Positions 18,185 to 38,156 of a stretch of 42,076 bases of DNA are shown piece after piece (position 1 is the stretch's first letter; every line of letters starts with the position of its first letter). Source of the stretch: Chloroflexota bacterium (GTDB lineage Bacteria > Chloroflexota > Dormibacteria > Aeolococcales > Aeolococcaceae); NCBI GenBank assembly GCA_005880445.1, contig VBGJ01000070.1, positions 1-42,076 on the forward strand, read 5' to 3'. The position numbers and the translations under genes are program-made. The notes below the pieces were generated by a model. It worked only from the letters and a program-made list of their open reading frames with translations, ran no database searches and had not been told where the DNA came from.

Positions 18185-19939
18185 GTGACCCAGATCCGCC
18201 TCCAGAACCTGACCGCTCCGAGCGGAGCCGCGTCGGAGTTGGGGCGCCCGATCCCGCTGTGGCGCGCGCGCCGGCAATCAGCGCGAAACGCCGTCGAGGA
18301 ACTGGCGAGCGGAGCACTCCACGTTGCTCGCGCGCTCCTGCTCCGAGCCTCGAGAGTTCGCGCTGACATCGCGGTGCTCGTGCCGCTGCTCATGGGCGTC
18401 GGGTTCGTCCAAGCGACGAACATGCTGCACTGGCCGGACATCAACTTCGACGAGGGCACATACATCGGGAACGCCTGGGCTGTCCAGCATCACGGCGCCC
18501 TCGGCTTCTACACGTTCAGCTATGGCCACCCACCGCTGGCATGGATCGCCATGTCACTCTGGACGTGGGTCACCGGTTTTTTCGGCCACATCGTCTACTC
18601 GATCGACAGCGAGCGCACGTTCATGCTCGTCGTCAGCCTGGTCAGCTGCTGGCTCGTCTACCTGCTCGCGCGACGGCTTCGCATGCGCAGGGCTTTTGCA
18701 GCCGGTGCCGTGGTGCTCTTCGCACTGTCGCCACTGGCGCTGTACTTCCATCGCCTCGTGCTCCTCGACAACCCGGCCATTGCCTGGGTGCTCGCCGCGT
18801 TCGTGCTGGCTCTGTCGCCACGGCGCAGGCTCTGGGCGTTTGCGGCGAGCGGCGCATGCTTTGCCGCCGCAGTGCTGTCCAAGGAGACGGTGTTCGTGCT
18901 CCTCCCCGCGCTTGTGGTGGCGGCCGTGCAGAACTCCGACCGGCGAACGCGTCGTTACTGCCTGACGCTGTTCATATCGTTCCTCAGTATCACGCTGATC
19001 ACGTATCCGCTCTATGCGCTCCTGAAGGGCGAGCTACTTCCCGGTCAGGGCCACGTGAGTCTGGTGGGCTCGATCGTGTATCAGCTGTACAGCCGCGACA
19101 CCACGGGAAGTGTCCTGAACCCGCACAGCGCCGGGCACGCGACCGCCGCCTTCTGGCTGCAACTGGACCCGTGGCTGCTGGTGGCAGCTCTTGCGCTGTC
19201 GCCGCTTGCACTCGCCCGTCGTGGTACGAGAGCGGTCACGGTCGCATACCTCCTCCAAGTTCTGATGATCTTCCGCGCGGGATACCTGCCCAACATGTAC
19301 GTGATCGGGCTGTTGCCCTTTGCCGCCCTCATGGTGGCGGGAACCGCTGATGGGATCTGGCGCAATCTGGTGCGCGGCTGGTACATCCTGAGACGCGACC
19401 GGCGCATGCGCCGGCTCCTCCGCGCGAAGGGGAAATGGCGCGCCGCGGGCGCTCGAGCGTCCATCGCGCTGACGCCGGTCTGGGCTCTCGCACTGGCAGC
19501 GACCATCTGGCTCGCGAGTCCGGCGTGGATCCAGAGCGACCGCCGCGCGATGTCGGTGCAGCTGGACAGCTCCACGCGCGCCGCGGAGAGCTGGCTTGCC
19601 ACGCACGTCAGCCACAACCAGCGAACGCTGGTCGGAGAGGATTCGTTCTGGATCTATCTCATCGAACACGGCTTCGCGTCTCAACCGATTGCCGGTGGCT
19701 TCTACTCCCCGACGGTCGTCTCGTACTGGACCCTTGATTACGACCCTGCGGTCAAACATTATTTCCCGCAGGGCTGGCGCGAGTTCGATTACGTCGTGTC
19801 GACACTCACGATGCGCGTCACCGCCTACGAGACGCCGAACACGGCGCAGGCATTGCAGCACTCTCGTCTAGTTGTCAGCTTTGGTCGGGGTGCCGATCGA
19901 ATCGAGATCCGCACGATCAACAAGGGAATGGGCACATGA
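18185..19939 (+). CDS. GT39/ArnT-like membrane glycosyltransferase (GT-C fold)
   Basis: A 584-aa polytopic membrane protein of the dolichyl-phosphate-mannose/ArnT-type group, which moves a sugar from a polyprenyl-phosphate donor to an acceptor on the outer face of the membrane. Family marks: the acidic motif in the first outer loop (PDINFDEGTYIGNAWA, Asp/Glu near residue 90), the following GHPPLAWIAMSLW, LLDNPAIAWVLAAF, and SKETVFVLLPAL. About ten hydrophobic segments are visible, with an outer C-terminal domain of about 120 residues (TRAAESWLATHV...). GTG 18185 has GAGGT 10 nt upstream. Its TGA overlaps the ATG of the next glycosyltransferase (ATGA), so it opens a long coupled operon. Confidence 0.85.
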   Translation: MTQIRLQNLTAPSGAASELGRPIPLWRARRQSARNAVEELASGALHVARALLLRASRVRADIAVLVPLLMGVGFVQATNMLHWPDINFDEGTYIGNAWAVQHHGALGFYTFSYGHPPLAWIAMSLWTWVTGFFGHIVYSIDSERTFMLVVSLVSCWLVYLLARRLRMRRAFAAGAVVLFALSPLALYFHRLVLLDNPAIAWVLAAFVLALSPRRRLWAFAASGACFAAAVLSKETVFVLLPALVVAAVQNSDRRTRRYCLTLFISFLSITLITYPLYALLKGELLPGQGHVSLVGSIVYQLYSRDTTGSVLNPHSAGHATAAFWLQLDPWLLVAALALSPLALARRGTRAVTVAYLLQVLMIFRAGYLPNMYVIGLLPFAALMVAGTADGIWRNLVRGWYILRRDRRMRRLLRAKGKWRAAGARASIALTPVWALALAATIWLASPAWIQSDRRAMSVQLDSSTRAAESWLATHVSHNQRTLVGEDSFWIYLIEHGFASQPIAGGFYSPTVVSYWTLDYDPAVKHYFPQGWREFDYVVSTLTMRVTAYETPNTAQALQHSRLVVSFGRGADRIEIRTINKGMGT

Positions 19940-22023
19940 CTTTCCTCTACCTGATGTACATCGCTGGTTCGCTTCTGCTGGTACTGGTGACGTGGACGAC
20001 CCTCGTGTGGATGCTCGATGCGTGGCGCACGCCACGATCGCTGGCAGAAACGCGATTGAATACCCATGCGGCGGAGCCACAGCATTCCTTCTCGCTCATA
20101 GTGCCGGCCCGCCACGAGGACGAGGTGCTCGAGGCAACGCTGTCGCGGCTGGTTGCAACCGACCACCCGGCCTTCAACGTGCTCGTCGTGGTGGGGCACG
20201 ACGACGAGCCTACCCGCCGCGTCGCGCAGCGCGTCGCCCGCCAGTTTCCAAAGCTCGTCAAGGTCGTGGTCGACCGCAACATCTCCAAGAACAAGCCGAA
20301 GGCACTGAACACCGCATTGCGCCACTGCACCGGGGACATCACCGGCGTGTTCGATGCCGAGGATGTCGTGCATCCTGCGCTGCTGCGCAGGATCGATCAC
20401 TGCTTCCAGAGAACCGACGCAGACGTCGTGCAGTCCGGTGTCCAGTTGATGAACTTCCGCTCGGGTTGGCTCGCCGTCCGGAGCGCGCTCGAGTACTACT
20501 TCTGGTTTCGCAGCCGCCTACACTTTCACGCGCGGCAGGGCTTCATCCCGCTTGGGGGGAATACGGTCTTCGTGCGCACAGAGCTCCTGCGCCAGGCCGG
20601 CGGATGGGACCCCAACTGCCTCGCCGAGGACTGCGAGCTGGGCGTGCGCCTGAGCACCCTCGGCGCGCGCACGGTGGTCGTCTACGAGCCCGCGCTCGCC
20701 ACGCGTGAGGAGAGCCCGCGATCTCTTCGCGCTTTCGTGCGGCAGAGAACACGCTGGAACCAGGGATACCTCCAGACGCTGAGGAAGGGCTACTGGCGGA
20801 GCCTGCCACCGCGCCGGCGCCTGCTGGGCGTGTTCACGCTGGCGATGCCCTATCTCCTCACGCTCGCGTGGATTCTCTTCCCGCTGGCGATCGCGACCGC
20901 GTTCATCCTCAAGGCACCCATACCGGTGACGCTCGTCTCCTTCCTGCCGCTACTGCCGGCGCTATCCATCCTCGCGGTCGAGATTGCCGGTCTCAACGAG
21001 TTCGCTCGAGCGTACGGACTGCGCACATCGCTTCGAGACTACGTGCGCCTCGTGCTGGGGCTCGTGCCCTACCAGCTCGTGCTGGCGTTCGCAGCCATGC
21101 GAGCCGTGGTTCGGGAGCTGCTGGGCGCTCGAGGCTGGGAGAAGACCGCCCATTTTGGGGCGCATTTCGCGGCGTTGAGAGATGGTGTCCCCAGCGCCAT
21201 CGCGTCTCTGCAACGGGCCGCCAATGACTATGGCCTCAGCCTCGATTCGGGCGCACGCGCATTGGGCTTCAGGCGGCGGCACGCGCGCAAGACCGGAATG
21301 GTGGGCACATGCATAACCGCTCTCATCGCCGTGGTTGTGGTGCCGTTCTTCATCACGCATCTCGGCTTGAACCCGTTCATCGCCCGGGGAGGCGGCGGGA
21401 AGGCGCCGGCACAGACACGACCGTCGTGGTCCGCGCCATGGTCGCCGCCCCAGCAGGGTCCGTGGGGATTTGGAGCGTTCAACACAGCGGGTGCCTATCG
21501 CGGCGCAGCGCTTGCGACCGGGGCGGGGCAATCCCAGGGTGGGCTCGCCAATACGTATGGGGGCGTAACCCCGCCCCCACCTGGGTCGATTGGCACCCTG
21601 CCGGGCCTGCCGGGCCTGCCACCGTTGCCGTTGCCGGTGCCGTTGCCGGTGCCGCTGCCGGTGCCGCCGACGAGCCTGCCGCCGCTGCCGCCGACGAGCC
21701 TGCCGCCGGTGCCGCCGCCGCCGGCGCCGTTGCCGGCACCCACGCCGCCGCCGCCGCCGCCGCTGCCGGTGCCCACGCCGAGCCTGCCACCGGTGCCGCT
21801 GCCACCACCGCTGCCGGTGCCCACGCCGAGCCTGCCACCGGTGCCGACGCTGCCGCCGCTGCCGGTGCCCACGCCGAGCCTGTCGTCGGTGCCGCCGCCG
21901 CCACCACTGCCGGTGCCCACGCCGAGCCTGCCGCCGGTGCCGACGCCGCCGCCACCACCGCTGCCGGTGCCCACGCCGAGCCCGCGCCCGGTGCCCACGC
22001 CCGGCGTGCCGAGCATCGGCTGA
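19936..22023 (+). CDS. processive-type GT2 membrane glycosyltransferase with a long proline-rich C-terminal tail
   Basis: A 695-aa protein. After an N-terminal membrane helix, residues ~45–290 form a GT2 (BcsA/HAS-like) domain: SLIVPARHED, the metal motif DAED (about 140–143), GGNTVFVR, the catalytic EDCELGVRL (about 231) and QRTRWNQG (about 270). Membrane segments follow near 290–380 and a last one near 455–480 (CITALIAVVVVPFFITHLGL). The final ~140 residues are almost only Pro, Val, Leu, Thr and Ser in repeats of PLPVPTPSLPPV, and by topology probably lie outside the cell. I know of no such tail on ordinary BcsA-like enzymes. It overlaps the GT39-like gene by 4 nt and is followed after 13 nt by a secreted glycosidase-like gene. 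Confidence 0.88.
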   Translation: MTFLYLMYIAGSLLLVLVTWTTLVWMLDAWRTPRSLAETRLNTHAAEPQHSFSLIVPARHEDEVLEATLSRLVATDHPAFNVLVVVGHDDEPTRRVAQRVARQFPKLVKVVVDRNISKNKPKALNTALRHCTGDITGVFDAEDVVHPALLRRIDHCFQRTDADVVQSGVQLMNFRSGWLAVRSALEYYFWFRSRLHFHARQGFIPLGGNTVFVRTELLRQAGGWDPNCLAEDCELGVRLSTLGARTVVVYEPALATREESPRSLRAFVRQRTRWNQGYLQTLRKGYWRSLPPRRRLLGVFTLAMPYLLTLAWILFPLAIATAFILKAPIPVTLVSFLPLLPALSILAVEIAGLNEFARAYGLRTSLRDYVRLVLGLVPYQLVLAFAAMRAVVRELLGARGWEKTAHFGAHFAALRDGVPSAIASLQRAANDYGLSLDSGARALGFRRRHARKTGMVGTCITALIAVVVVPFFITHLGLNPFIARGGGGKAPAQTRPSWSAPWSPPQQGPWGFGAFNTAGAYRGAALATGAGQSQGGLANTYGGVTPPPPGSIGTLPGLPGLPPLPLPVPLPVPLPVPPTSLPPLPPTSLPPVPPPPAPLPAPTPPPPPPLPVPTPSLPPVPLPPPLPVPTPSLPPVPTLPPLPVPTPSLSSVPPPPPLPVPTPSLPPVPTPPPPPLPVPTPSPRPVPTPGVPSIG
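21590..22020 (+). repeat. GC-rich tandem repeats encoding the Pro-rich tail
   Basis: Imperfect repeats of units such as GTGCCCACGCCGAGCCTGCC and CCGTTGCCGGTG across about 430 bp. They code for PLPVPTPSLPPV units in the GT2 tail. The shortest units are 6–12 bp, so copy number is likely to vary by slippage. Several long shadow ORFs on both strands arise only from this repeat. Confidence 0.85.
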
Positions 22024-22036
22024 TGCGCGAGCGTCA

Positions 22037-23077
22037 ATGCTCCTCGGAAATGTCGCACGGACCACTGTCGTCGTCGTCATCGCCGTGTGCGTGTGCCTCG
22101 ACGCGGGAGACACGGTTGCCCAACCCGCCGGAGGCGCCCCTCGCGGGCGTGCTGCGCCGCAATCCGGAGGCGCTCATCGCGGGCACCTGGCTGCTCCGCT
22201 GCCACATCGGCCGGCAGCGAGACCCAGCTCAACCCCCCATCCTGTCGTCTCGCCAAGCGTTGTTCACGGCGCAGGCGCGAACATCGATGTCAACCTCAGC
22301 TCCAATCTCGCCGCGGCGATGACGACGCTGCACCTGCGCACCGTGCGCGACGCGCACGACGACCCCGACCTGGCGAGTCACCTCGAGCAGATGGAAGCCG
22401 CCGGCATCCAGCCGCTCATCGTCATGTACGGGTGCAGTGTCAGCGATGCCCATCGGCTGGCGGACAACAGGTTCTTGCTGCAGCGGGTACATCGGATTTT
22501 CGGTGACGCCAGCATCTGGTGGGAGCTGGGAAACGAGAACGACATCCAGTGCGGTCTCACGGCCCGGCAGTACACCGCGATGTGGAACGGGGAGATCCCT
22601 GCACTTCGGAACATTTACCCTCACGACTGGTTCGGTGGGCCGGTCACCTTCCAGGCGAATCCAAGCTTCATCGCCTACTTCGTGGCACACGCTTCGCCAG
22701 GTCCCGACTTCATCTCGTGGCACGAATACACGTGCAGCAGCGCCGACTCGGCGCGCACGTGTATTGACAATGTCGCCCGGTGGCCAGCGCACATCGCGAC
22801 CACGCGGCAGCGCATCAGCGCCGAGGGATTGTCGGCGCCGCCTGTGTTCATCACGGAGTGGAACTACGCTCCAGACGGCGGGGTCGCATCGGACGGTAAG
22901 CACGGCAACGCGACCTTCATGAATCAGTGGACGACGATGGCCCTGCGAACGCTCGCAGAGAACGACGTTGCCGAGAGCTACCAGTTCGACACATCCGGCG
23001 TCTTGCCTCTGGTTGATTCCCGCGGGACAGCCACGGCGCAGGGCGTGGCGTTCTCCGGCTTTTGGGGGTCGCGGTGA
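22037..23077 (+). CDS. secreted glycoside-hydrolase-like protein (clan GH-A type)
   Basis: A 346-aa protein with an N-terminal signal or anchor (ARTTVVVVIAVCVCLDAG) and a Pro/Arg/Ala-rich linker to about residue 75. The rest resembles a TIM-barrel glycosidase. It has WWELGNENDI, with Asn-Glu as the usual GH-A acid/base pair, and VFITEWNYAPDGG, with Glu as the candidate nucleophile. ISWHEYTCS and ALRTLAENDVAESYQFDT also fit a GH39/GH5-like scaffold. The track starts it in the repeat at 21590; ATG 22037 is the first sensible start. It shares a GTGA overlap with the next gene. Likely role: trimming or hydrolysing the glycan made by the operon (inference); the exact GH family is not known. Confidence 0.75.
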   Translation: MLLGNVARTTVVVVIAVCVCLDAGDTVAQPAGGAPRGRAAPQSGGAHRGHLAAPLPHRPAARPSSTPHPVVSPSVVHGAGANIDVNLSSNLAAAMTTLHLRTVRDAHDDPDLASHLEQMEAAGIQPLIVMYGCSVSDAHRLADNRFLLQRVHRIFGDASIWWELGNENDIQCGLTARQYTAMWNGEIPALRNIYPHDWFGGPVTFQANPSFIAYFVAHASPGPDFISWHEYTCSSADSARTCIDNVARWPAHIATTRQRISAEGLSAPPVFITEWNYAPDGGVASDGKHGNATFMNQWTTMALRTLAENDVAESYQFDTSGVLPLVDSRGTATAQGVAFSGFWGSR

Positions 23078-25200
23078 ACCCACGCTCCCACGAGACGGAA
23101 CGGAATCGGGCGCTCTCAGAGTCGCGCGCGGGGCGGCTGCATGTGGGACTGCTAGGGAGCTTCCGCGTCGAGGGACCCCAGGGCATCGTTCCCGAGAGCG
23201 CCTGGCTGCAGCGGCGATCGGCCAAGACGCTGCTGAAGCTGGTCGCGACCGATCCCGCCCATATGCTCCATCGCGAACAGATCATGGAAATGCTCTGGCG
23301 TGACGTCAACGCCGCGTCCGCGCGCAACAGTTTCGCGAAGGCATTGCACGCCGCCCGCCACGCGCTCGAGCCCCAGCGCACACGAGGGTCGAACACGTAC
23401 CTCCTGCTCCACGACGACATGCTTTGGCTCGACACCGAGAACGTCATCGTCGATGCCGACCGATTTGAGCGATTGGCGACCGCGGCGCTCGAGCGGGGAG
23501 ATCTCGAGCGGTACGAGATCGCGCTTGCGGCGTATTCCGGTGAGCTCCTTCCTGCAGACCGCTATGAGGACTGGTCTTACGGCCGCCGCGACTACCTCGC
23601 GTACTTGCATACGAAATTGCTGCGGGGAGCCGCCGAGGCCCTGGAAAGAATGGGCTCCAGTCAGCAGGCAGTAGACCATCTGCTCATCGCGCTGCAGCAC
23701 GACCCGGCGAACGAGGTCATTCATCGACAGCTCATCCGCATCTACGCGGAGCAAGGCATGCGTGGCGAAGCGGTGCGCCAATTCCACGCTTGCCGCGATG
23801 CGCTCAAGCACACGCTGGATGTGAGTCCTGATGCGCAGACCGTTGCCCTGTATGAGGACATCGTCGCCGACCGATTCCAGAGACGAGGTCCAACATACGC
23901 GCAGATTTCGAATTTCGGTGACGCCGGCACTGCGCCCTTGTGTCGGGCCGTATCCGAACCCCCCTTCGTCGGTCGTGACGAGTCGCTTCGGCTGCTGCGG
24001 GACCGACTGAAGCTCGCGGATGAGATGAGGGGTGGCCTCATTCTGCTCAGCGGTGAGGCAGGGGTCGGCAAGACGCGCTTGGTGGCCGAGTTCGTCGCCG
24101 AAGCGAGTGAGCGCGGCGCGACGGTGCTCGTCGGAGGCACCACGACCCATCCAAGGATGCTCCCCTACAGCGCATTCAGCCTCGCCATCGAGAGTCACGT
24201 GGCCAGCCAGCCGGACGACGAACGCCAGCGGCTGGCCGATAGGCATAGAGCATTGGTCCGGCTCATACCGTCGCTTGGAGTGGAAGCGAACCCATGGTTC
24301 GACCGAGCCGGCTCGGTCGCCCGCCACAGTCATCTCGTGGCCGCAATTGTCCGCTTGCTGACAGACCTGGCCGCAGAACGCACGGTCGTGCTGACAGTGG
24401 GAGACCTCGACGCGATCGATCCGCTGAGCTTGCAGCTGCTCTGGTATCTGGCACATCTGGCCGGCAACCGGAGATGGGTCATCGTCGCCACGTGCCGCGA
24501 GGAACGATTGGATGCAGAGAGTGAGCTTCTGGGCGCTCTCGATGCCGCCGTGCACCAAGGCGTATGCACACACATGCGGCTGCCATGCCTCCCCCGGCCG
24601 GAGTGCGACCAGCTTGTACGTGCGATCCTGCGCGACTACCCAGTCGACGGCGTGCTGCTGGATCATATGTTTTCGCTCACACTGGGGAATGCGCTGTTTG
24701 TCGTGGAGCTGGCCCGAGCGTTGCGAGAGTGCGGTGATGTCGACGCGACTGCGGCTACACCCACCACGTTGTCGCACGTTTCGAAGCATGTGCCCGAAGC
24801 CATCAGGAAGCTCGTGGAATCGACCGTATCCAACCTAGAACCGAATGTGCGCCAGGTTCTTCGACTCGTTGCCGCCGCTCAAGGCGACCTCACACTGGCG
24901 GAGCTTCGAGTCGCCGCGAAGGCGTTGCGACCTTCAGTGCCAGCCGCAGCCTTCTTCGATGCACTGGACCGGGCGCTGGCAGTGCAGATGATCGAGGAGC
25001 TGGAAGGAACGTATTCGTTTCGGCACCCGCTGGTCGGTGCAACCTTGTATGAGAGGCTCCCCGCTCACCGCCGTCTCCAGTACGAGGCGGCGCTGCGGCC
25101 CGCCCGGAGGATGGATGGGAAACTCTCGAAGCTCACCGTGCTCACCGCACCGGTACCTGCATCGGGTCCTGTGGCCCGTCGTGTGGAGGTGACCCAATGA
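23074..25200 (+). CDS. BTAD-type transcriptional regulator with AAA ATPase domain
   Basis: About 708 aa, SARP/AfsR-like layout without a C-terminal LuxR helix. Residues ~10–110 form a winged-helix DNA-binding domain (HVGLLGSFRVEG, LHREQIMEMLWRD). Residues ~110–260 form the BTAD helical domain (YSGELLPADRYEDW, IYAEQGMRGEAVRQF). An AAA_16-type ATPase follows: FVGRDESLRLLRDRL, Walker A GEAGVGKT (about residue 327), then helical repeats. In the Walker B region the sequence reads VVLTVGDLDAID, where the first Asp of the usual DD pair is Gly. GTG 23074 overlaps the previous TGA and is preferred to the track's TTG 23062. It is probably the operon's own regulator. Confidence 0.88.
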   Translation: MNPRSHETERNRALSESRAGRLHVGLLGSFRVEGPQGIVPESAWLQRRSAKTLLKLVATDPAHMLHREQIMEMLWRDVNAASARNSFAKALHAARHALEPQRTRGSNTYLLLHDDMLWLDTENVIVDADRFERLATAALERGDLERYEIALAAYSGELLPADRYEDWSYGRRDYLAYLHTKLLRGAAEALERMGSSQQAVDHLLIALQHDPANEVIHRQLIRIYAEQGMRGEAVRQFHACRDALKHTLDVSPDAQTVALYEDIVADRFQRRGPTYAQISNFGDAGTAPLCRAVSEPPFVGRDESLRLLRDRLKLADEMRGGLILLSGEAGVGKTRLVAEFVAEASERGATVLVGGTTTHPRMLPYSAFSLAIESHVASQPDDERQRLADRHRALVRLIPSLGVEANPWFDRAGSVARHSHLVAAIVRLLTDLAAERTVVLTVGDLDAIDPLSLQLLWYLAHLAGNRRWVIVATCREERLDAESELLGALDAAVHQGVCTHMRLPCLPRPECDQLVRAILRDYPVDGVLLDHMFSLTLGNALFVVELARALRECGDVDATAATPTTLSHVSKHVPEAIRKLVESTVSNLEPNVRQVLRLVAAAQGDLTLAELRVAAKALRPSVPAAAFFDALDRALAVQMIEELEGTYSFRHPLVGATLYERLPAHRRLQYEAALRPARRMDGKLSKLTVLTAPVPASGPVARRVEVTQ

Positions 25201-25415
25201 CCTGCCCGCAGTGTGGTGCCGCAACGCCCGACGACGAGTGGAACTGCACTTCATGCCGCATCAACCTCTACTGGGCCAGCCGCCACTATCCAGAGTTGGC
25301 CAAGGGTTCGGGGGATAGCCCGACGCTTCATTCGCGGCGACCGCAAGGAACTGGAAGAGCATCGGAATATGCATGGAATCACCAACGCGTAGGCTTCACG
25401 GCAGCTTGGCGCTAG
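25197..25415 (+). CDS. small zinc-ribbon protein
   Basis: A 72-aa protein with one zinc ribbon at its N-terminus (MTCPQCGAATPDDEWNCTSCR: CPQC and CTSC pairs) and a polar tail with no recognisable domain. It overlaps the regulator's stop codon (ATGA), so translation is coupled. It could act with the regulator or with the following enzymes. Its TAG stop lies in one arm of a hairpin. Confidence 0.75.
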   Translation: MTCPQCGAATPDDEWNCTSCRINLYWASRHYPELAKGSGDSPTLHSRRPQGTGRASEYAWNHQRVGFTAAWR

Positions 25416-25430
25416 GGGGGTAACTAGCGC
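25409..25430 (+). promoter_or_regulatory. hairpin overlapping the zinc-ribbon stop, in a G-rich gap
   Basis: GCGCTAG-GGGGGTAA-CTAGCGC: a 7-bp perfect stem with a G-rich loop. The sequence also reads as a direct repeat (GCGCTAGGGGGG / GCGCTAAGGGGG). It sits in the 48-nt gap before the GT2–GGDEF-like gene, the largest internal gap of the operon. It could tune expression between the two halves of the operon. Confidence 0.4.
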
Positions 25431-25463
25431 TAAGGGGGAAACTGGAAGGAAGGGAACGGAGAC

Positions 25464-26855
25464 ATGACTGTCCGCCTCGACACACGACTGTCGGGCATGG
25501 CTTGGGACGGCGATCAGCCGAACGCTCCGGACGCCGAGACGACCTCTTGCAGCGTCGGGATCATGGCGTACAACGAAGAAGCGAACATCGCCAGCGCGAT
25601 CAATACGATCCTGCCGCAGCGTCTTGCTTCCGGCAGGATCGACGAGCTGATCGTGGTCGCCAGCGGCTGCACGGATCGCACCGCTGAGATCGTCGCGAAG
25701 ATCGCGAAGCGCGAGCCTAGAGTTCGCCTCATTGTGCAGCCGCGTCGCGAGGGGAAGGCCTCCGCCATCAACCTCTTCATCGAAGCGGCGCGATCGCCTG
25801 TGCTGCTCATGGTCGGCGCGGATGTGCTGGTCGAGGAGGGGACGATCGAGGCGATGGTCCGCAATTTCGACGATCCAACGGTCGGCATGGTCGGCGGGCA
25901 TGCCATCCCGGTCAACGACGAGACGAGATTTCTCGGATATGCCGCTCATCTGCTCTGGCGCCTTCACGACCGGCTGGCGCGGGAGGCGCCGAAACTTGGC
26001 GAGATCGTCTCGTTCCGCAATGTGGTGCCGAGCCTCCCGGTCGACACGTCGGTCGACGAGATCTCACTCCAAGCGCTGATAACCCAACTGGGATACCGGA
26101 CCGTGTACGAGCCCAAGGCCATCGTTTACAACCGCGGCCCCGGAACAGTGCGGGACTTCGTGCGTCAACGGCGGCGGATCTTCGCTGGTCACCTGCGTGT
26201 GCGCAAGCAACAGGGGTATGCGGCGTCCACGATGAGCATCCGGCGGATCGGCCGCGCGTTTCGAGGATCGGGGGCCTTCAGCTCGCTGCGCGCGGTTCTC
26301 TGGACGACGTGCACGATCGCACTCGAGGCGACTGCCCGCGCGCTCGGCCGATATGACTTCGTGCGTCGCCACTCGCATCACGTATGGCGACCCATCAGCA
26401 CAACCAAGCGCTACATCGCGGAGGGCGCCATCGGTCAGCTGCAGCCCAGCGTGCTTGTGTTCCACATCGTCAATTTCCACCGACAGCAGCTGGAATTCGG
26501 CATGCGCGCCAGCAAGCAGATGGCCGGACGGGTGCTGCAATACATCCGGCTGTCCCTGGGGCCGAATTCGCAAGTCTCAGTGCAGCGAGGTGGCACGATC
26601 ATCGCTGTCATACCGGCTCCGCGCGAGGAGGCCGAGCGCATCGCAGGCGAGATTGTGCGTGGCCTCGATGACGGAGCGTTGGACCTCCATGACTCGACAG
26701 ACGGCCCGACGATCCGGCTCGCCTGCGGGATCATCGCGTTCTCGTTCGCCGGGCAGGCGGCGGCTGGGTCCGTGCAAGCGGCTGGACTGGCACCAGGGGA
26801 CTTCGGCACCGGACTCGATCGCCGTCTCGACGAAGCCCTTTCCGAGGCCGTCTAG
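25464..26855 (+). CDS. GT2 glycosyltransferase fused to a degenerate GGDEF-like domain
   Basis: 463 aa. Residues ~30–270 form a GT2 domain: VGIMAYNEEANIASAI, ELIVVASGCTDRT, GADV in the DxD position, and RQRRRIFAGHLRVRKQQGY at the acceptor side. No strong membrane helices are visible, so it is probably peripheral. Residues ~325–445 follow the order of a GGDEF domain: SVLVFHIVNF (where FDIDNF is usual), the helix RASKQMAGRVLQYIRLSL, VQRGGTIIAVIP (where RxGGDEFxxxxP is usual), EEAERIAGEIV, and IRLACGIIAFS (where VTxSIGIA is usual). The metal Asp (now His 334) and the DEF residues are lost, so it should not make c-di-GMP; it may bind a nucleotide or be structural. ATG 25464 has GGAG-like purines upstream. 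Confidence 0.85.
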   Translation: MTVRLDTRLSGMAWDGDQPNAPDAETTSCSVGIMAYNEEANIASAINTILPQRLASGRIDELIVVASGCTDRTAEIVAKIAKREPRVRLIVQPRREGKASAINLFIEAARSPVLLMVGADVLVEEGTIEAMVRNFDDPTVGMVGGHAIPVNDETRFLGYAAHLLWRLHDRLAREAPKLGEIVSFRNVVPSLPVDTSVDEISLQALITQLGYRTVYEPKAIVYNRGPGTVRDFVRQRRRIFAGHLRVRKQQGYAASTMSIRRIGRAFRGSGAFSSLRAVLWTTCTIALEATARALGRYDFVRRHSHHVWRPISTTKRYIAEGAIGQLQPSVLVFHIVNFHRQQLEFGMRASKQMAGRVLQYIRLSLGPNSQVSVQRGGTIIAVIPAPREEAERIAGEIVRGLDDGALDLHDSTDGPTIRLACGIIAFSFAGQAAAGSVQAAGLAPGDFGTGLDRRLDEALSEAV

Positions 26856-26883
26856 CCGCAATGCCACTGAGGACGAGTAATCG

Positions 26884-28026
26884 ATGGGCATGATGCAGGT
26901 CATACCGCAGATCCCGGTGCTGAAGGCATCGTATGTGACGGGGCGTGTGCTCACGCTGCCGGCGAACATCACCGTGAGCGTCAGCTATCGCTGCAACTCT
27001 CGTTGCAAGACATGCAACGTGTGGCTCCTTCCCAACGATGATCTCACGCTCACCGAGTGGGATCGCGTGTTCGAGTCCTTGGGCAAGGCCCCATATTGGT
27101 TCACCTTCAGTGGTGGAGAGCCCACCCTGCGCAGTGACCTCCCCGACATGGTGGCCAGCGCCTACCGCCACTGTCAACCGGGCATCATCAACATTCCGAC
27201 CAATGGCATCCAGGACAAGGTCATTCCGGGACGCATCGAGCGGGTGCTGCAGGCGGCTCCGAAGGCCGAGGTCATCATCAACCTCTCGCTCGACGCCGTG
27301 GGACTGAAGCACAACGAGATTCGTGGCGTCCGGAACAACTGGTCACGCGCCATGAGCACATACGCAAGTCTCAAGGACTTGAAGACGCGCTACAAGAATC
27401 TGACCCTCGGAGTGCACACGGTCATCTCGAACTTCAACGTGGACTCCTTCCCTGAGCTGTGCGAGGTCGTCCAGCGCGACCTGAAGCCTGACTCCTACAT
27501 CACCGAGATCGCTGAGGAGCGCGTCGAGCTCGACACCGTCGGCCTGGGTATCACCCCGACAGCAGAGCGTTACGAGGTCGCCATCGATACGCTGCTCGAA
27601 AGCCTTCGCGACCGGAACCTCACCGGGGTTGCGGAGGTCACACAGTCGTTCCGGCGCAGGTACTACGAGCTCGTCAAGCGGACGCTGCGCGAGCAGCGGC
27701 AGGTCATTCCGTGCATGGCCGGCGTGGCATCAGCCCAGATCGCTCCGAATGGCGACGTCTGGACGTGCTGCATCCGAGCCGAATCCATGGGCAACCTCCG
27801 GGAGCACGGGTACGACTTCGGAGCCGTCTGGAGAACGGGCAAGGCGGCGGCGCTGCGCCGCAGCATCAAGGCGGGTGAGTGTTATTGCCCGCTTGCCAAC
27901 GCGGCCTACACGAACATGTTGCTCCACGAGCCGACCGTGCTGAAGGTGGCAGCGGAGGTGACGCGCTCTCGGCTCAAATCCCGACTTGTCAATCATAGAG
28001 CTCACGCGAGCGAGGCGCTCGCGTGA
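26884..28026 (+). CDS. radical SAM/SPASM-domain enzyme
   Basis: 380 aa. The radical SAM 4Fe-4S motif is CNSRCKTC (Cys 37, 41, 44; CX3CX2C), followed by the SAM-binding FTFSGGEPTLR. The C-terminal part holds a SPASM/Twitch-like Cys set (IPCMAGVASAQIAPNGDVWTCCIR, then AGECYCPLANA) that would bind an extra Fe-S cluster. SPASM enzymes modify peptides, sugars or lipids; the neighbours here point to a glycan or lipid step (inference). No small precursor-peptide gene is seen next to it. The gene starts 28 nt after the GT2–GGDEF-like gene and its TGA overlaps the next GTG. Confidence 0.9.
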   Translation: MGMMQVIPQIPVLKASYVTGRVLTLPANITVSVSYRCNSRCKTCNVWLLPNDDLTLTEWDRVFESLGKAPYWFTFSGGEPTLRSDLPDMVASAYRHCQPGIINIPTNGIQDKVIPGRIERVLQAAPKAEVIINLSLDAVGLKHNEIRGVRNNWSRAMSTYASLKDLKTRYKNLTLGVHTVISNFNVDSFPELCEVVQRDLKPDSYITEIAEERVELDTVGLGITPTAERYEVAIDTLLESLRDRNLTGVAEVTQSFRRRYYELVKRTLREQRQVIPCMAGVASAQIAPNGDVWTCCIRAESMGNLREHGYDFGAVWRTGKAAALRRSIKAGECYCPLANAAYTNMLLHEPTVLKVAAEVTRSRLKSRLVNHRAHASEALA

Positions 28027-29048
28027 GCTCGCCACTCCATCGTTCGGACGAGGTGGTGCTCGTCACCGGTGCAACCGGGTTTCTTGGTTCCCATCTGGTG
28101 AAGCGGCTCGTCTCGGACGGGGCACGCGTGCGCATCCTCGTGAGGTCCGCGAATCGCGCTCGATCACTCGCCGAGCTCGGAGCTGAGGTAACGGTGGGAG
28201 ACATCCAGGACGAGACAGCTGTGCGCAGTGCTCTTCGTGGGGCGCTGACCGTGTATCACCTTGCCGGCAAGCTGCTGGTGCCCGGTGCGCGCGATGCTGA
28301 GTACCGAGCCACCCACGTCGACGCGACCAAGCTCCTCCTCGCCCACAGTCGCGGCCAGTCGCAGCTGCGGCGGTTCGTACATTGCAGCACGACGGGTGTC
28401 CTGGGCGTGACCGGTGCAGAGCCGGCTGACGAGGGCGCCCCACTCCGACCCACCAACATTTATGAGGCGACGAAGGCTGAGGCAGAGCTCGCCATACGCG
28501 ACGCCATGCGGTCGGGCTTCCCCGCCGTCATCGTCCGGCCGGGCCTTGTCTACGGACCGGGCGATCTGCATCTTCTTGGATTCTTCCGCTCGGTGTTCAG
28601 GGGGCGCTTTCGTCCCATCGGCCGGCGACCGGTCTGGTTGCATCCCATCTACGTCGACGACATGGTCGACGCGGTGGTTCGGTGTGGACGGCATCCCGCC
28701 GCCGTCGGTGAGTGTTTTCACATCGCCGGCCCGGAGCCCGTGTCGCTTGCTGCCTTGGCGGCGGCGATAGCCAACGCAGAGGGCACGGATGTGCCGTCAG
28801 GAACGATCCCTCTTCCGGCCGCGCGTGCGGTCGCAATTGCAGGCGATCTCCTGCCCAGCAACGTGCGTCGCGCTGCGCCGCTGACGCGCAGCCGCCTCGA
28901 CTTCCTGACACACAGCCGGGTGTACAGCGTGGCGAAGGCCAAGCGGGTCATCGACTTCACTCCGGCGACCGATCTCTCGACGGGGATGGCCCGCACGGTG
29001 GCGTGGTATCGCGAGCATGGCTACCTTCCCGCACGGTCCGCGGCATGA
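28023..29048 (+). CDS. NAD(P)-dependent epimerase/dehydratase (extended SDR) 1
   Basis: 341 aa. The Rossmann motif VLVTGATGFLGSHL lies at residues ~12–25, the catalytic Tyr-Lys pair at YEATK (147/151), and the upstream Ser in HCSTTGVLG. It is closest in style to HpnA/3-beta-hydroxysteroid-dehydrogenase-like extended SDRs (RPGLVYGPGDLHLLGFF), so the substrate may be a sugar nucleotide or a terpenoid/steroid-like lipid. The GTG start overlaps the radical SAM stop (GTGA). Confidence 0.9.
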   Translation: MSSPLHRSDEVVLVTGATGFLGSHLVKRLVSDGARVRILVRSANRARSLAELGAEVTVGDIQDETAVRSALRGALTVYHLAGKLLVPGARDAEYRATHVDATKLLLAHSRGQSQLRRFVHCSTTGVLGVTGAEPADEGAPLRPTNIYEATKAEAELAIRDAMRSGFPAVIVRPGLVYGPGDLHLLGFFRSVFRGRFRPIGRRPVWLHPIYVDDMVDAVVRCGRHPAAVGECFHIAGPEPVSLAALAAAIANAEGTDVPSGTIPLPAARAVAIAGDLLPSNVRRAAPLTRSRLDFLTHSRVYSVAKAKRVIDFTPATDLSTGMARTVAWYREHGYLPARSAA

Positions 29049-29067
29049 GGGTGTCGTAGGAGCAGCG

Positions 29068-29586
29068 GTGCGGGTCAGAGATCACATCGCTCTCTCCACT
29101 GCCGGGGCTGCCGCGCTGGCGCCCTGGGCGGGTCGGCGCGCGCTCGGAGCGTGGGCAGCGAGCATCCTCATCGACATCGACCATTACCTGTGGTTCTCGG
29201 TACACGAGCGGCAGGTCAGCCCGCGTCGCGCCGTGCGTTTCTTCAACCAGCCGGATGCGCCGCACCACCCCGCCACGCGCGTGCTGCATCATCCAACGAC
29301 GCTCCTGGCGGTCGCGTTGCTCGGTACTCGGCGCCGGGCGGCTCTGCCCGTGGCATTGGGCATGGCGTTCCATGTCGCGCTCGACGTGCAGCACGAACGG
29401 CGGCTTCGGGACATGCGCACGTCGGCCATGCGCCGCGATGACTTCACGTGTCAGGCCTGTGGCGTTCCGGGGCGGCCCGTCACGTCGCACGTGTGGCGTC
29501 AACCACGACTGCTTCCCTCCTACCGGATGCAAGACGTCGTCACGCTGTGCACCAGCTGTCATGAGGCCGCGCACGCGGATGCTTGA
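29068..29586 (+). CDS. YdjM-like membrane segment fused to a C-terminal HNH-type zinc domain
   Basis: About 172 aa from GTG 29068, which has AGGAG 5 nt upstream; the track start 29017 lies inside the previous gene. The N-terminal ~110 residues have hydrophobic stretches and metal-like motifs resembling YdjM/DUF457 membrane-bound hydrolases (SILIDIDHYLWF, HHPATRVLHHPTTLL, MAFHVALDVQHE). The last ~50 residues look like an HNH/McrA module: RDDFTCQACGV, SHVWRQP, and TLCTSCHEAAH, with two CxxC pairs and the His positions. The combination in one small protein is unusual. Function unknown; the HNH part could be purely structural. Confidence 0.7.
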   Translation: MRVRDHIALSTAGAAALAPWAGRRALGAWAASILIDIDHYLWFSVHERQVSPRRAVRFFNQPDAPHHPATRVLHHPTTLLAVALLGTRRRAALPVALGMAFHVALDVQHERRLRDMRTSAMRRDDFTCQACGVPGRPVTSHVWRQPRLLPSYRMQDVVTLCTSCHEAAHADA

Positions 29587-30649
29587 CGTCCGCCTGGTGC
29601 CGCCTCCCCTTGTCCGAGCGCTGCGCGGGCACACCGTTGGACTGCGCATGGCTGCCGGCCTTGGCGTCGGAGCGTTGCTGGTCGTCGCCTTCTTGAAGAT
29701 CGTCGGCATCGGTGGCGTGCTCCAGAGGCTGCAGCACCTGGACATCACCCTGGCCCTGCTCAGCGGCGCCGTCTTTCTCGGTGCCTGGGCGGTGCGCGCT
29801 CTCCGCTGGCGCTGGTTCCTGGCGCCGTACGTGGTCAGCATTCCGCGCGCGATCGGAATCTATCTGGTTGCCATCTTCATCAACTGGCTTCTTCCCATGC
29901 GCGGGGGCGAGTTCGCCAAGAGCCTGCTGCTGCGGCACTCGAACGACATCCCTGTCAGCGCCTCGCTGCCAACCGTGACGATGGACAAGGCGATGGACCT
30001 GCTCCCTGCTGTGGCGCTCATCGCGTTGCTCCCGATCGCGCATCTGCCCATGACGCAGCCAGTCTGGATACTCCTGCTGACCATCGTCGGCGTCCTGACG
30101 TGCGTTGCGATCGTGCTCGTGTTTGCGGCATGGCGCCGCGATCGCACCTTGGCGTGGCTGACTCGGAGCGTCGCCAGGATCCTTCCCGCGAGCGTGCGCC
30201 CGAACGTGGGTGCATTCGTGGTGCGCTTCACCGACACGATGCTTACGCTCGTGCGCCGGCCTCGACTCCTGATCATCACGGCCGCCTACACAGCGGTCGC
30301 CGTCGCGCTCGACGCGCTGTTCTGCTATCTCGCGTTTCGAGCCGTTGGAGCGGCGATTGCCTTTCCGGTCGTGCTCTATGGCTACACGCTGTACAACCTC
30401 GCATACATCCTCCCTACACCTCCGGGCCAGGTCGGCAGCAACGAGGTGATGGGCCTGCTGGTCTTCTCCGGCATGTTTGGCGTCAGCCGCTCCGCGGTTG
30501 GTGCGATGTTTCTCTTCTCCCACCCGTGGACGGCTGCTCTGATGGTGGCGTGTGGCCTCCTGTGCTTGAGCGCAATGGGGTTGACCTTGCTCGGCACCTT
30601 CAGCCTGGCACGCAGTCGAGTGACCGTCGCCGAAGAGACCGCGACGTGA
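29579..30649 (+). CDS. LPG-synthase-TM (UPF0104) family membrane protein, flippase-like
   Basis: 356 aa with about eight membrane segments. Family motifs are INWLLPMRGGEFAKSLLL in the first half and LPTPPGQVGSNEVMGLLVF in the second, as in the transmembrane domain of MprF and in AglD-like proteins. There is no C-terminal aminoacyl-transfer domain, so it is not a full MprF. In glycan loci such proteins are thought to handle or flip lipid-linked intermediates (inference). I place the start at ATG 29579, overlapping the previous stop by 8 nt; the track's 29255 start covers the upstream gene. Confidence 0.87.
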   Translation: MLDVRLVPPPLVRALRGHTVGLRMAAGLGVGALLVVAFLKIVGIGGVLQRLQHLDITLALLSGAVFLGAWAVRALRWRWFLAPYVVSIPRAIGIYLVAIFINWLLPMRGGEFAKSLLLRHSNDIPVSASLPTVTMDKAMDLLPAVALIALLPIAHLPMTQPVWILLLTIVGVLTCVAIVLVFAAWRRDRTLAWLTRSVARILPASVRPNVGAFVVRFTDTMLTLVRRPRLLIITAAYTAVAVALDALFCYLAFRAVGAAIAFPVVLYGYTLYNLAYILPTPPGQVGSNEVMGLLVFSGMFGVSRSAVGAMFLFSHPWTAALMVACGLLCLSAMGLTLLGTFSLARSRVTVAEETAT

Positions 30650-30656
30650 GGCAACG

Positions 30657-31655
30657 ATGACGTCGCTGGTGACAGGAGCGACCGGGTTGCTCGGCAGCCA
30701 TCTGACGGACCTGCTGGTGGCGCGTGGCGAGCGGCCGCGTATCCTGGTGCGGCCGGGGGAGTCACTGGACGGGCTCGCGCACGCGGGCGTCGACGTGTGC
30801 TGGGGCGACATGACGGACGCGGCATCGCTGGAGATCGCGGTGCGGGATGTCGACCGAGTCTTTCACTGCGCGGCGAGGACCGGACCTTGGGGCCCGCCGG
30901 CCGAGTATCGCGCCGTCAACGTGTGGGGCCTCGAGACGCTCTTGGGCGTCGCCCTCACCGCCGGTGTACGCCGCTTCGTGCATGTCAGCTCGATCACGGT
31001 GCACGGCAACGACGTGCGCGGCACGGCTGATGAAACAGCGCCGATGCGCGTGGAGCCCAATCCGTACAGCCGATCCAAGGTCGCCGCTGAACGGCTGCTG
31101 GCGCGCGCAGTGCGTGAACGCGGCGCTCCGGTGACCATCGTGCGTCCGGGATGGATCTACGGGCCTCGCGACACCGCGAGCTTCGCCCGGTTCGCGGCGC
31201 TGATCGAACAGAGACGGATGATCGTCATCGGCCCCGGAACGAACCACGTGCCGCTGGTGTTCGCTCAGGATGCGGCGGCGAGTCTGCTTCTGGCGAGCGA
31301 AGCTGCGCACGCAGTGGGCAGGGAGTACGTGATCGTCAATGACGAGCCCGTCACGCAGCGCGACTTCCTCGACGCCATCGCGACGGAGCTCAACGTCGCT
31401 CCGCCCACTCGCCATCTGCCGTACCGGCTCGCCGTCCTCCTGGGTGCGACAGCTGAGGCGGGAGCCCGCCTCACGCGAAGGCGGCAGCCGCCACCGCTCA
31501 TGCGGTACGGAGTGAACCTGCTCGGGGGAGAGAACCGGTTCGTCATCACGCGAGCGAGGCGGGAGCTGGGATTCTCTCCGCAGGTCCGTCTGGCCGAGGG
31601 TGTCAAGCGCGCGGTCGAGTGGTTTCGCGCAGGTCATGAAGCGCTGGCGGCGTAG
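30657..31655 (+). CDS. NAD(P)-dependent epimerase/dehydratase (extended SDR) 2
   Basis: 332 aa. The Rossmann motif SLVTGATGLLGSHL lies at residues 3–16, the catalytic YSRSK at 137/141, and a Ser in HVSSITVHG upstream. It is 3-beta-HSD/sterol-dehydrogenase-like in style (RPGWIYGPRDTASFARFAAL). The ATG lies 7 nt after the flippase-like gene. It is related to, but less similar than, the pair SDR 3 and SDR 5 downstream. Confidence 0.9.
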   Translation: MTSLVTGATGLLGSHLTDLLVARGERPRILVRPGESLDGLAHAGVDVCWGDMTDAASLEIAVRDVDRVFHCAARTGPWGPPAEYRAVNVWGLETLLGVALTAGVRRFVHVSSITVHGNDVRGTADETAPMRVEPNPYSRSKVAAERLLARAVRERGAPVTIVRPGWIYGPRDTASFARFAALIEQRRMIVIGPGTNHVPLVFAQDAAASLLLASEAAHAVGREYVIVNDEPVTQRDFLDAIATELNVAPPTRHLPYRLAVLLGATAEAGARLTRRRQPPPLMRYGVNLLGGENRFVITRARRELGFSPQVRLAEGVKRAVEWFRAGHEALAA

Positions 31656-31671
31656 CGGCGAGAGCGGAACG

Positions 31672-32718
31672 ATGAATGTACTGGTCACCGGTGGCAACGG
31701 ATTCGTAGGGCGACATGTGGTGGCTGCTCTCCAGGAGCGGGGTGACCGCGTTCGCGTGCTTGCTCTGCCTGGCGAGGAAACGTCGTGGCTCGAGACGCGT
31801 GGCGTCGACGTCCGTCGAGGCGATGTCCGGCAGCCAGAGACGCTTGCCGAACCCGTGCGCGGGGTGCAGAAGTTGATCCATCTGGCGGCCATGATGGATG
31901 TGTGGCGCCCGATCCGTGACTACCGCACTGTGAATGTGAGCGGCACCGAGAATGTGTGTCGCGCCGCGCTGACGGCCGGCGTTAGACACCTTGTACACAT
32001 GAGCTCATCGAGCGTCTACGGGATGGGGAATGGGCGCCCGGTCGACGAAGACTTTCCCCTGGCCCCGTTCAAGGATCCCTACCCCGTCTCCAAAGCCGAG
32101 GGCGACGCGTTGGTGCAGCATATGATCGCCGAGCACGGCTTGCCGGCCGTCATCGTCCGACCCGACCAGATCTTCGGTCCCGGCGACCACCTTCACTTCG
32201 CTCACATGGCGGACAGAATCGCCCGTGGACGGAGCGTCATCGTCGGATCAGGACGCAACGCGATGCCGTTCGTGTATGTCAGCGATGCGGTGCAAGGGCT
32301 GCTGCTCGCGCTCGACAACGAACGTGCACTTGGCCGGGCGTTCAACATCACGAATGACGAGCGCCTCACGCAGCAAGAGCTGCTCGCAGCGATTGCAAGC
32401 GAGGTCGGCGCCGAGACGCCCCGGCTGCACCTCCCGTTTCGCGCCCTGTACATCGCCGGCTGGCTGGCTGAACGAGTAGCCGGCTTCGCCGGCTCCGGAC
32501 GCCGTCCACCCATCACACGGCTCGGCGCCGCGTTCTTCGGGACCGACAACCGGTATTCGATCGACAGAGCCCGGCGAGAGCTTGGTTACAGGCCACGCGT
32601 CGGGCTGCGCGAGGGCGTGCGGCTGGCCGCTCTGTGGTACCGGCATCGCAACCCATCTGGGACGACATCTGCTCGCGCGACCACGCCCGCGGTCGAGTGG
32701 GTGGCCGGAGAGAGGTGA
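31672..32718 (+). CDS. NAD(P)-dependent epimerase/dehydratase (extended SDR) 3
   Basis: 348 aa from ATG 31672; the track's 31600 start overlaps SDR 2. The N-terminus is MNVLVTGGNGFVGRHVV, the catalytic YPVSK is at 137/141, and there is a Ser in HMSSSSVYG. It is very similar along its whole length to SDR 5 (33496): both share GEETSW/DEDTSWL, GSGRNA(M/L)PFVYVSD and FGTDNRYSIDRARRELGY-type segments. The two flank a classical SDR, so they look like a tandem duplication around it. Its stop overlaps the next start (GTGA). Confidence 0.9.
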   Translation: MNVLVTGGNGFVGRHVVAALQERGDRVRVLALPGEETSWLETRGVDVRRGDVRQPETLAEPVRGVQKLIHLAAMMDVWRPIRDYRTVNVSGTENVCRAALTAGVRHLVHMSSSSVYGMGNGRPVDEDFPLAPFKDPYPVSKAEGDALVQHMIAEHGLPAVIVRPDQIFGPGDHLHFAHMADRIARGRSVIVGSGRNAMPFVYVSDAVQGLLLALDNERALGRAFNITNDERLTQQELLAAIASEVGAETPRLHLPFRALYIAGWLAERVAGFAGSGRRPPITRLGAAFFGTDNRYSIDRARRELGYRPRVGLREGVRLAALWYRHRNPSGTTSARATTPAVEWVAGER

Positions 32719-33485
32719 AACCGGTGCCCAAACCGTTGATCGGAGAGGTGGCGATCGTGACGGGCGCCAGCTCGGGCATCGGCGCCGTCACCGCCCGAGT
32801 GCTGGCCGCGCGCGGAGCGAGCGTCGTGCTCGCCGCCCGGCGGCGCGCCGAGCTGGAAGCGCAAGCCCGGGCGATAGAGGCCGACGCGGGCCAATCGATT
32901 GCGGTTCCCGTCGACGTCGCCGACCCCGACCAGGTGGCCCGGCTCGTCGAGCGGGCTCTCGCCGCGTTCGGGAAGGTCGATGTGCTGGTGAACAACGCTG
33001 GGATCAATTGGTCGCGTCCGCTGGCTCGCAGCGACGCCGACGACATCGTCCGGGTGGTCGGCATCGATCTCCTGGGCGCCATGGTGCTCACGCGTGCCGT
33101 CCTGCCCGGGATGCTCGACCGGCGCCACGGCGCGATCGTCTCGGTTGGATCGCTGTCGGGGCGTGTTGCGATGGAGCCGCTCTACTCTGCCGCGAAGTAC
33201 GGCCTGCGCGGTTTCTCGCTGTCATTGCGGCGTCAGCTCGCCGGCAGCGGTGTGTCGGTGTCGCTCGTGTCGCCGGGGAACATTCGCACCGCAATGACGG
33301 GTCATCTGCAGGCCCGGTTGCCCGAGCCCGATCTGGTGGCGACGACGATCGCAGATCTCGTCACGCGCCCGCGTCGTGAGGTTGTTGTGCCACGAAGGCA
33401 CTACGTGATCGCTTGGCTCGAGGAGGCACTTCCCGGCTTGGCGGATCTGGCATATCGCCGGCGCCACTGGTCGCCGGTGTCGTAG
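32715..33485 (+). CDS. classical short-chain dehydrogenase/reductase (SDR 4)
   Basis: 256 aa. It has the nucleotide motif TGASSGIG, the structural NNAG, the catalytic Ser in VSVGSLSG, and YSAAK at 157/161, so all active-site residues are present. GTG 32715 overlaps the previous TGA and has GGAGAG upstream; GTG 32724 is an alternative, and the track's 32634 start is inside SDR 3. The substrate is unknown; a keto group made or used by the neighbouring extended SDRs is a reasonable guess. Confidence 0.9.
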   Translation: MKPVPKPLIGEVAIVTGASSGIGAVTARVLAARGASVVLAARRRAELEAQARAIEADAGQSIAVPVDVADPDQVARLVERALAAFGKVDVLVNNAGINWSRPLARSDADDIVRVVGIDLLGAMVLTRAVLPGMLDRRHGAIVSVGSLSGRVAMEPLYSAAKYGLRGFSLSLRRQLAGSGVSVSLVSPGNIRTAMTGHLQARLPEPDLVATTIADLVTRPRREVVVPRRHYVIAWLEEALPGLADLAYRRRHWSPVS

Positions 33486-33495
33486 AGGAAGAGAC

Positions 33496-34527
33496 ATGAA
33501 CGTGCTGATCACCGGGGGCAACGGCCTGCTCGGCCGCCATCTCGTACCGGAACTTCAGGGGCGCGGCGATGCAGTGCGAGTGCTCACGCTTCCGGATGAA
33601 GACACCTCGTGGCTCGATGAGCGTGGCGTCCCGGTGGTTGCCGGTGACGTCCGCCGGCCCGAGACGCTGGTTGCTCCCATGCGTGGGGTGGAAGCGGTGC
33701 TGCACCTCGCCGGCATGATGGGCGTCTGGCGGCCACTCGCCGACTACCGTGCGGTCAACGTGACGGGCGCAGAGAACGTCGCCCGGGCGGCTCTGGCGGT
33801 GGGCGTGCGTCGCTTCGTCCATGTCAGCTCGTGGACGGTGTACGGCATGAACCTGGGAAGACCCGCCGACGAGGATTTCCCGCTCAGGCCGTTTCATGAG
33901 CCATACGCCGTCACCAAGGCCGAGGGCGACCGTCTGATCCAACGCCTGATCCGTGAAGCCGGACTGCCGGCTGTCATCATCAGGCCGGGCACGTTTTTCG
34001 GTCCCGGTGACCGGCTGCATTTCGGGCGAACAGCGGATCGCCTGCGCGCCGGCAGGGGCCTCATCGTGGGCTCCGGCCGGAACGCCCTGCCATTCGTGTA
34101 CGTGAGCGACGTGGTCCAGGGGCTCCTGCTGGCGCTCGACGTCGACGCGGCGACGGGTCATGCGTACAACATCGCTCACGACCAACCCCTCACCCAGCAG
34201 CAGTTCCTCAACACGGTTGCGGCCGCAACCGGTGCCAAGCGACCGTCGCTCCACGCGCCCTACAACGCGCTGTACGTCGCTGGGTATGCGGCGGAACGTC
34301 TCGCCGCCCTGACCGGCTCTCGCCGGCAGCCGGTGTTGACCAGGCTGGGCGTCAAGGTCTTCGGTAGCGACAACCGGCATGCCATTGACAAGGCGCGCCG
34401 AGAGCTCGGCTATGCGCCTCGCGTCGCGCTGCGTGACGGTGTCGTCCGTGCTGCGGAGTGGTACTTGCAGCAGGGCTCGTCCGCAAAGCTTTCCGTAGCG
34501 GCGGCGGGTGCCGGAATCACGGTTTGA
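33496..34527 (+). CDS. NAD(P)-dependent epimerase/dehydratase (extended SDR) 5
   Basis: 343 aa. MNVLITGGNGLLGRHLV, catalytic YAVTK at 137/141, Ser in HVSSWTVYG, and RPGTFFGPGDRLHF. A close paralogue of SDR 3 with collinear motifs throughout. It is the last gene of the 16-kb operon: a gap of 60 nt follows before the large secreted protein, without an obvious terminator. Confidence 0.9.
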   Translation: MNVLITGGNGLLGRHLVPELQGRGDAVRVLTLPDEDTSWLDERGVPVVAGDVRRPETLVAPMRGVEAVLHLAGMMGVWRPLADYRAVNVTGAENVARAALAVGVRRFVHVSSWTVYGMNLGRPADEDFPLRPFHEPYAVTKAEGDRLIQRLIREAGLPAVIIRPGTFFGPGDRLHFGRTADRLRAGRGLIVGSGRNALPFVYVSDVVQGLLLALDVDAATGHAYNIAHDQPLTQQQFLNTVAAATGAKRPSLHAPYNALYVAGYAAERLAALTGSRRQPVLTRLGVKVFGSDNRHAIDKARRELGYAPRVALRDGVVRAAEWYLQQGSSAKLSVAAAGAGITV

Positions 34528-34587
34528 CTTCGAAAAAGGGACCCGCCAAAATATCGGGTAGTTCGAGCAACAGGAAGGGATTTGTCG

Positions 34588-37575: not shown

Positions 37576-37685
37576 CGGCTTTCGCCAATAGGCGATCGAC
37601 TCGCCCGAAACGCGACGGATGGGAGCCGATGCGGCGCGCGGGTCGGATCGAAGAGCACGTAGACTGCGGGCCGGAGGTGACGCCC

Positions 37686-38054: not shown

Positions 38055-38156
38055 GCGGCGTCAGTAGTACGCAAGAACACGCGCCAAGCAACGCAAGTTT
38101 CCCCGGATTCCGGTCGTTGGTCGTCGTAGAACCACGTGAACCGGGGAGGCGTTTCC

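Follow-up and report, generated by a model that had tools for sequence, protein, structure and literature searches.

GGDEF domains are among the commonest signalling domains of bacteria, and the usual explanation for dead ones is that they are receptors that bind c-di-GMP at the I-site. GGDEF_2 (PF17853), a short GGDEF-like domain without the signature, is found in transcription factors, namely the CdaR/PucR-type regulators. Regulatory domains also occur on the chain of GT2-type synthases, as in NfrB, a glycosyltransferase with a c-di-GMP-binding MshEN domain. BcsA has the same layout, with a c-di-GMP-binding PilZ domain on its own GT2 chain (PMC8461298). In the Pel polysaccharide system, the degenerate GGDEF domain of PelD has no cyclase signature but keeps an RxxD motif (R367/D370) for c-di-GMP, and PelD is a separate membrane protein that also contains a GAF domain (PMC8461298). 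PssE from Listeria and BcsE from E. coli are likewise separate proteins whose catalytically dead GGDEF domains serve polysaccharide synthesis, and both bind c-di-GMP through a retained I-site (PMC4125290, PMC8461298).

Here we analysed a 42,076-nucleotide stretch of DNA from a Chloroflexota bacterium (the window), in which a gene on the + strand (25464..26855, ATG start) encodes a 463-aa protein made of a GT2 glycosyltransferase and a degenerate GGDEF-derived C-terminal domain. Unlike the domains of PelD, PssE and BcsE, this tail is fused to the GT2 and lacks the RxxD I-site. The one-chain layout resembles that of BcsA and NfrB, but the fused domain in those proteins is a c-di-GMP-binding PilZ or MshEN domain, whereas the domain found here is GGDEF-derived and without known binding motifs. 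No paper on a GT2–GGDEF fusion was found among the open-access papers searched, and, judged from that literature, the architecture appears to be undescribed. A first-pass annotation had suggested that it might be a new and compact means of sensing a nucleotide; what is new is the GGDEF origin of the fused domain, as on-chain c-di-GMP domains on GT2 enzymes are already known from the PilZ of BcsA and the MshEN of NfrB. The tail has lost both sites of a GGDEF domain and yet selection maintains it as part of a glycosyltransferase in two phyla. We consider it probable, at roughly 60%, that it is a catalytically dead GGDEF-derived domain reused as a non-enzymatic module for GT2 dimerisation or partner docking, which would make it a small and testable example of a signalling-enzyme domain re-used within a biosynthetic enzyme.

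A GGDEF-derived domain on a GT2 chain

The GT2 assignment is certain, with residues 30-163 matching PF00535 at 92.1 bits (E 5e-26; Pfam cut-off 23.3). The catalytic module, including a C-terminal amphipathic/hydrophobic helix, spans residues 28-316 (25545..26411, + strand), and tailless archaeal relatives (L037, L038) match this module and end where it ends. With a five-sequence family profile, the closest solved relative of the module was the archaeal mannosyltransferase PcManGT (6yv7; E 3e-17), which has a three-helix transmembrane region instead of the GGDEF tail (PMC10569066). The position of the DxD motif (residues 118-120; 25815-25823) reads GAD or SAD, and its second Asp, D120, is invariant. 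We also observed that the first Asp is replaced by Gly or Ser across the whole GT2 family, the archaeal relative included.

The C-terminal domain comprises about 105 aa, and its core is a minimal degenerate GGDEF fold of order beta-alpha-alpha-beta-beta-alpha-beta (residues 327-428; 26442..26747, + strand), delimited by Pfam matches, an AlphaFold model, a fold search and an alignment. Residues 327-438 of the window protein align in order with positions 32-145 of the 161 in PF00990 (15.9 bits, E 0.011). This match falls below the curated cut-off of 23.8 bits, and taken by itself it is marginal and suggestive. All four orthologous tails matched PF00990, however, and the tail of a 60%-identical orthologue (L036) exceeded the cut-off (26.6 bits, E 5.9e-6). 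In the reverse direction, we used a four-tail profile in six-frame searches of 110, 299, 397 and 201 genomes, sets that partly overlap. Outside the family, the profile matched 11 loci at E<=1e-3. Every one of them encodes a GGDEF protein and scores E 1e-15 or better against a GGDEF model, of which three of the 11 were themselves members. For the tail, AF2 was given no templates and no sequences besides the four orthologues; the resulting model, of moderate confidence, had pLDDT values of 74-89 over residues 326-405 and showed the same order of strands and helices. The top PDB matches of this model were GGDEF domains, with YfiN/TpbB (4iob) at E 1.8e-5, TM 0.58 and rmsd 1.9 Å over 104 columns, and PleD and DosC also among the best. 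The full-length model was poor (pLDDT 49) and served only to check the tail. On these three lines (the Pfam match of L036 above the cut-off, the reverse profile and the predicted fold), the homology of the tail to GGDEF domains is secure.

These results bear out the first-pass annotation, which had read a degenerate GGDEF-like domain in full GGDEF order (residues ~325–445) from the GT2 sequence. Evidence that would speak against that reading had been named beforehand, namely a non-cyclase fold or a different family matched with confidence; the fold recovered was of the cyclase type, with GGDEF domains as the best matches. Class III cyclases and GGDEF domains form one structural superfamily, and both appeared in the fold search. 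That the tail is some other ferredoxin-like or class III cyclase fold, not derived from GGDEF, is nevertheless extremely unlikely. Class III cyclases ranked below GGDEF domains, which came first by both fold and sequence, and neither the orthologue above the PF00990 cut-off nor the exclusively GGDEF profile matches fit such an origin. GGDEF_2, although also a short domain without the signature, matched three of the four tails only weakly (E 0.0018-0.0084; best 19.0 bits, under the curated cut-off of 24.5), and PF00990 matched all four and outscored it in three.

Other comparisons gave weaker signals. A phmmer search of PDB sequences with a single tail returned only a chance match (MtxA, E 0.88), and the tail profile placed the diguanylate cyclases 4zmm, 4zmu and 4iob at E 0.1-1, behind a chance match. 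Aligning the four tails with nine GGDEF domains from the same genome in hhalign gave the correct register over 104 columns at a low probability (9%), because both alignments were thin; we left this result out of the support for homology. Against a profile of a dozen GGDEF sequences, two tails scored 19.7 and 18.8, compared with a shuffled maximum of 7.5, and the other two scored 6.7 and 4.5. The window tail belongs to the low-scoring pair, so the case for GGDEF rests on the family and not on this single sequence.

Loss of catalytic and ligand-binding residues

The roles of the conserved GGDEF residues are established from PleD and its relatives, and we followed these positions in a joint alignment of the four tails with a dozen canonical GGDEF domains. 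One stretch covers strand 1 together with the former GTP-pocket loop (residues 330-346, VLVFHIVNFHRQQLEFG; 26451..26501, + strand), and here His334 takes the place of the strand-1 metal Asp in every orthologue. The canonical loop DxF(K)xxND has become (V/A)(N/D)FHxxxLE, and the list of residues invariant among the four includes Phe338, His339, Leu343, Glu344 and Gly346. The former GGDEF beta-hairpin, located by the alignment and the AF2 model (residues 370-383, QVSVQRGGTIIAVI; 26571..26612, + strand), now reads (R/K/E)(G/V/S/A)GT(I/V/A), with an invariant Gly377-Thr378 in place of the acidic pair in 4/4. Loss of the metal Asp and of the DEF, as first read from the window protein, thus extends to every orthologue. 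The register read by eye needs a slight amendment: the RGG of the window protein varies (RVG, KSG and EAG in the orthologues) and only the Gly-Thr after it is kept, so the match of its GG to that of GGDEF may be off by one residue.

Other positions have changed too. The Asp of GHxxGD is replaced by Lys or Arg, no single residue has taken the place of the guanine-binding Asn (Q, Q, R, E), and the N-terminal NRR segment is missing. The tails also lack the C-terminal DxxLYxAKxxGRN segment, including the Lys/Arg of AKxxGRN; the window protein ends instead in a variable extension modelled with low confidence (residues 429-463; 26748..26852, + strand). None of the four orthologues has an RxxD I-site upstream of the hairpin; the aligned positions read GPNS, APDA, GRTA and GPAA. 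Judged from these alignments, the tail is without the features of an active diguanylate cyclase, the signature, the metal Asp and the GTP-binding residues all being replaced or missing in 4/4, and no known nucleotide-binding motif is left.

The first-pass annotation had proposed that the tail may sense a nucleotide. In its c-di-GMP form, this reading would have an on-chain sensor of c-di-GMP (or GTP) switch the GT2 on through a non-canonical site, much as PilZ acts in BcsA. The organism probably contains c-di-GMP, given at least 12 canonical GGDEF proteins in the source genome; the tail-bearing GT2 sits in a glycan cluster, and polysaccharide production is known to be governed by degenerate GGDEF proteins, namely PelD, PssE and BcsE (PMC8461298, PMC4125290). 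Those three proteins, however, keep an I-site that the tails lack, which leaves canonical c-di-GMP sensing without support. With the metal Asp and the GD position replaced and the Asn position drifting among Q, R and E, we regard a sensor of this kind as quite unlikely. No c-di-GMP domain was detected elsewhere among the cluster proteins scanned with Pfam. The alternative raised alongside sensing, a remodelled structural domain, fits better: because the known nucleotide-binding motifs are all absent, a structural role is the most likely one.

Conservation and distribution of the tail

A search of related genomes, as first suggested with the domain call, recovered the same GT2 and tail architecture in three other genomes at 56-65% identity. 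Two orthologues belong to the window's class (L006/L035, Candidatus Dormibacteraeota, and L007) and one to a Streptosporangiaceae MAG (L036); all four sequences come from metagenome assemblies. The tail is rare, occurring in three of 110 class-mate genomes and one actinobacterial MAG, and it is always fused. Searches with the tail profile and, independently, with the neighbouring radical-SAM protein both gave the count of 3/110, and a wider profile search of Actinomycetota yielded no tail-bearing relative beyond the one MAG. Distant GT2 relatives in DPANN/Nanoarchaeota/Woesearchaeota MAGs are 36-41% identical and end where the tail starts. This restricts the fusion to a small bacterial branch and shows that the GT module can fold without the tail.

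Across the four orthologues, residues 28-316 align without gaps at 67-73% identity and residues 317-428 (112 residues), also gapless, at 44-55%. Differences in the tail are more often silent (pS 0.58-0.74) than replacing (pN 0.27-0.36), which indicates that the tail is under purifying selection, weaker than that on the GT2. That the tail is a functionless, neutral remnant of the fusion is very improbable. It does evolve faster than the GT2, and the archaeal relatives do without it, but the selection and the gapless alignment, together with the lack of any truncation in four lineages of two phyla, run counter to neutrality. In addition, the residues that replace the canonical ones (His334, His339 and Gly377-Thr378) are themselves invariant, so the pattern looks like re-use and not decay.

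Strand 1 and the pocket loop appear to be the best conserved part of the tail, with nine of 17 positions invariant in residues 330-346 as against 19 of 82 in residues 347-428, although with four orthologues such statistics are coarse. The region around His334 and His339 might just as well bind a ligand, which counts against dimerisation or docking. One possible, if somewhat unlikely, explanation is that a rebuilt pocket (His334, His339, Glu344 and the Gly-Thr hairpin) senses a sugar nucleotide or other nucleotide and exerts direct control over the GT2 to which it is fused; if true, this would be a new on-chain allosteric module for glycosyltransferases. We find it rather unlikely that the former GTP pocket was remodelled for another ligand (a sugar nucleotide, the product, or a metal held by His334/His339) in feedback control of the GT2. 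Conservation is highest in the pocket wall, and the replacements there are invariant, but no match suggests a ligand, nothing beyond the replaced pocket residues points to binding, and the comparison covers four sequences.

Gene neighbourhood and proposed role

The tail-bearing GT2 lies in a cluster whose genes named here run on the + strand. Upstream are a membrane glycosyltransferase of PMT_2 type and a processive-type GT2 (18185..22023), both kept in the Streptosporangiaceae MAG, and, immediately before the gene, a BTAD/AAA_16 transcriptional regulator (23062..25200) that is kept there as well. It is followed by an adjacent radical SAM/SPASM protein (26884..28026), an SDR of the NAD-dependent epimerase/dehydratase family (28023..29048), a flippase-like LPG_synthase_TM membrane protein (29255..30649) and four SDR-family genes (starting at 30657, 31600, 32634 and 33496; 30657..34527), three of which are kept in the MAG. 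From this gene content we infer that the cluster makes a surface glycan. The radical-SAM protein is 82-88% identical between the genomes and always lies next to the tail-bearing GT2, pairing with it in the same three of 110 genomes as well as in the Streptosporangiaceae MAG.

We propose that a GGDEF domain was once fused to the C terminus of a GT2 in a surface-glycan cluster and later stripped to its beta-alpha core. The remaining domain would be unable to synthesise c-di-GMP, having lost the metal ligands and the GTP-binding residues, and, without RxxD, unable to bind it at an I-site. It would instead act as a structural module, in dimerisation of the transferase or in docking to a partner, for instance the adjacent radical-SAM/SPASM protein or a different enzyme of the cluster. 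The contact would probably be made by the face of the former substrate pocket, the best conserved part of the domain. What the analysis shows is the homology and fold, the loss of catalytic and I-site residues, the purifying selection, and the constancy of fusion and neighbours; the dimerisation or docking role and the choice of partner are inferred. Docking to the radical-SAM partner is countered by the archaeal relatives, which pair with radical-SAM genes without a tail; the association in general therefore does not need one.

In the archaeal MAGs, a GT2 gene of this family adjoins radical-SAM/SPASM-like genes at three loci (L037 4998-7628, L038 4998-9912 and L039 5025-9060; DPANN/Nanoarchaeota/Woesearchaeota). 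At two of them the translation of the neighbour reads by eye as a single chain that combines a GT2 with a radical-SAM domain. The cluster joins the GT2 to a radical-SAM enzyme in a core that recurs in DPANN archaea, and the pair (25464-28026 in the window) looks like a module shared by bacteria and archaea.

The cluster at 18185-34527 shares the regulator, GT2, PMT-type glycosyltransferase, tail-bearing GT2, radical SAM protein, SDRs and flippase with L036/L067/L068, at 41-82% protein identity. Because the Streptosporangiaceae MAG keeps nearly the whole cluster, a transfer between phyla is suggested, or else a mis-binned contig. The processive-type GT2 (19936-22023, 695 aa) ends in a proline-rich repeat region clearly longer than 100 residues, and in the relative it is conserved only to about residue 424. 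The ORF at 21590-23077 encodes a secreted glycosidase-like protein of about 300 aa, recognised by eye from motifs such as WWELGNEND and FITEWNY, with no Pfam match at E 1e-3; the L036 cluster likewise contains a glycosidase-like gene. Two large secreted-looking proteins of 997 and 977 aa (34582-41069) also gave no Pfam match at E 1e-3, and one of them has a TP-rich linker between repeated domains.
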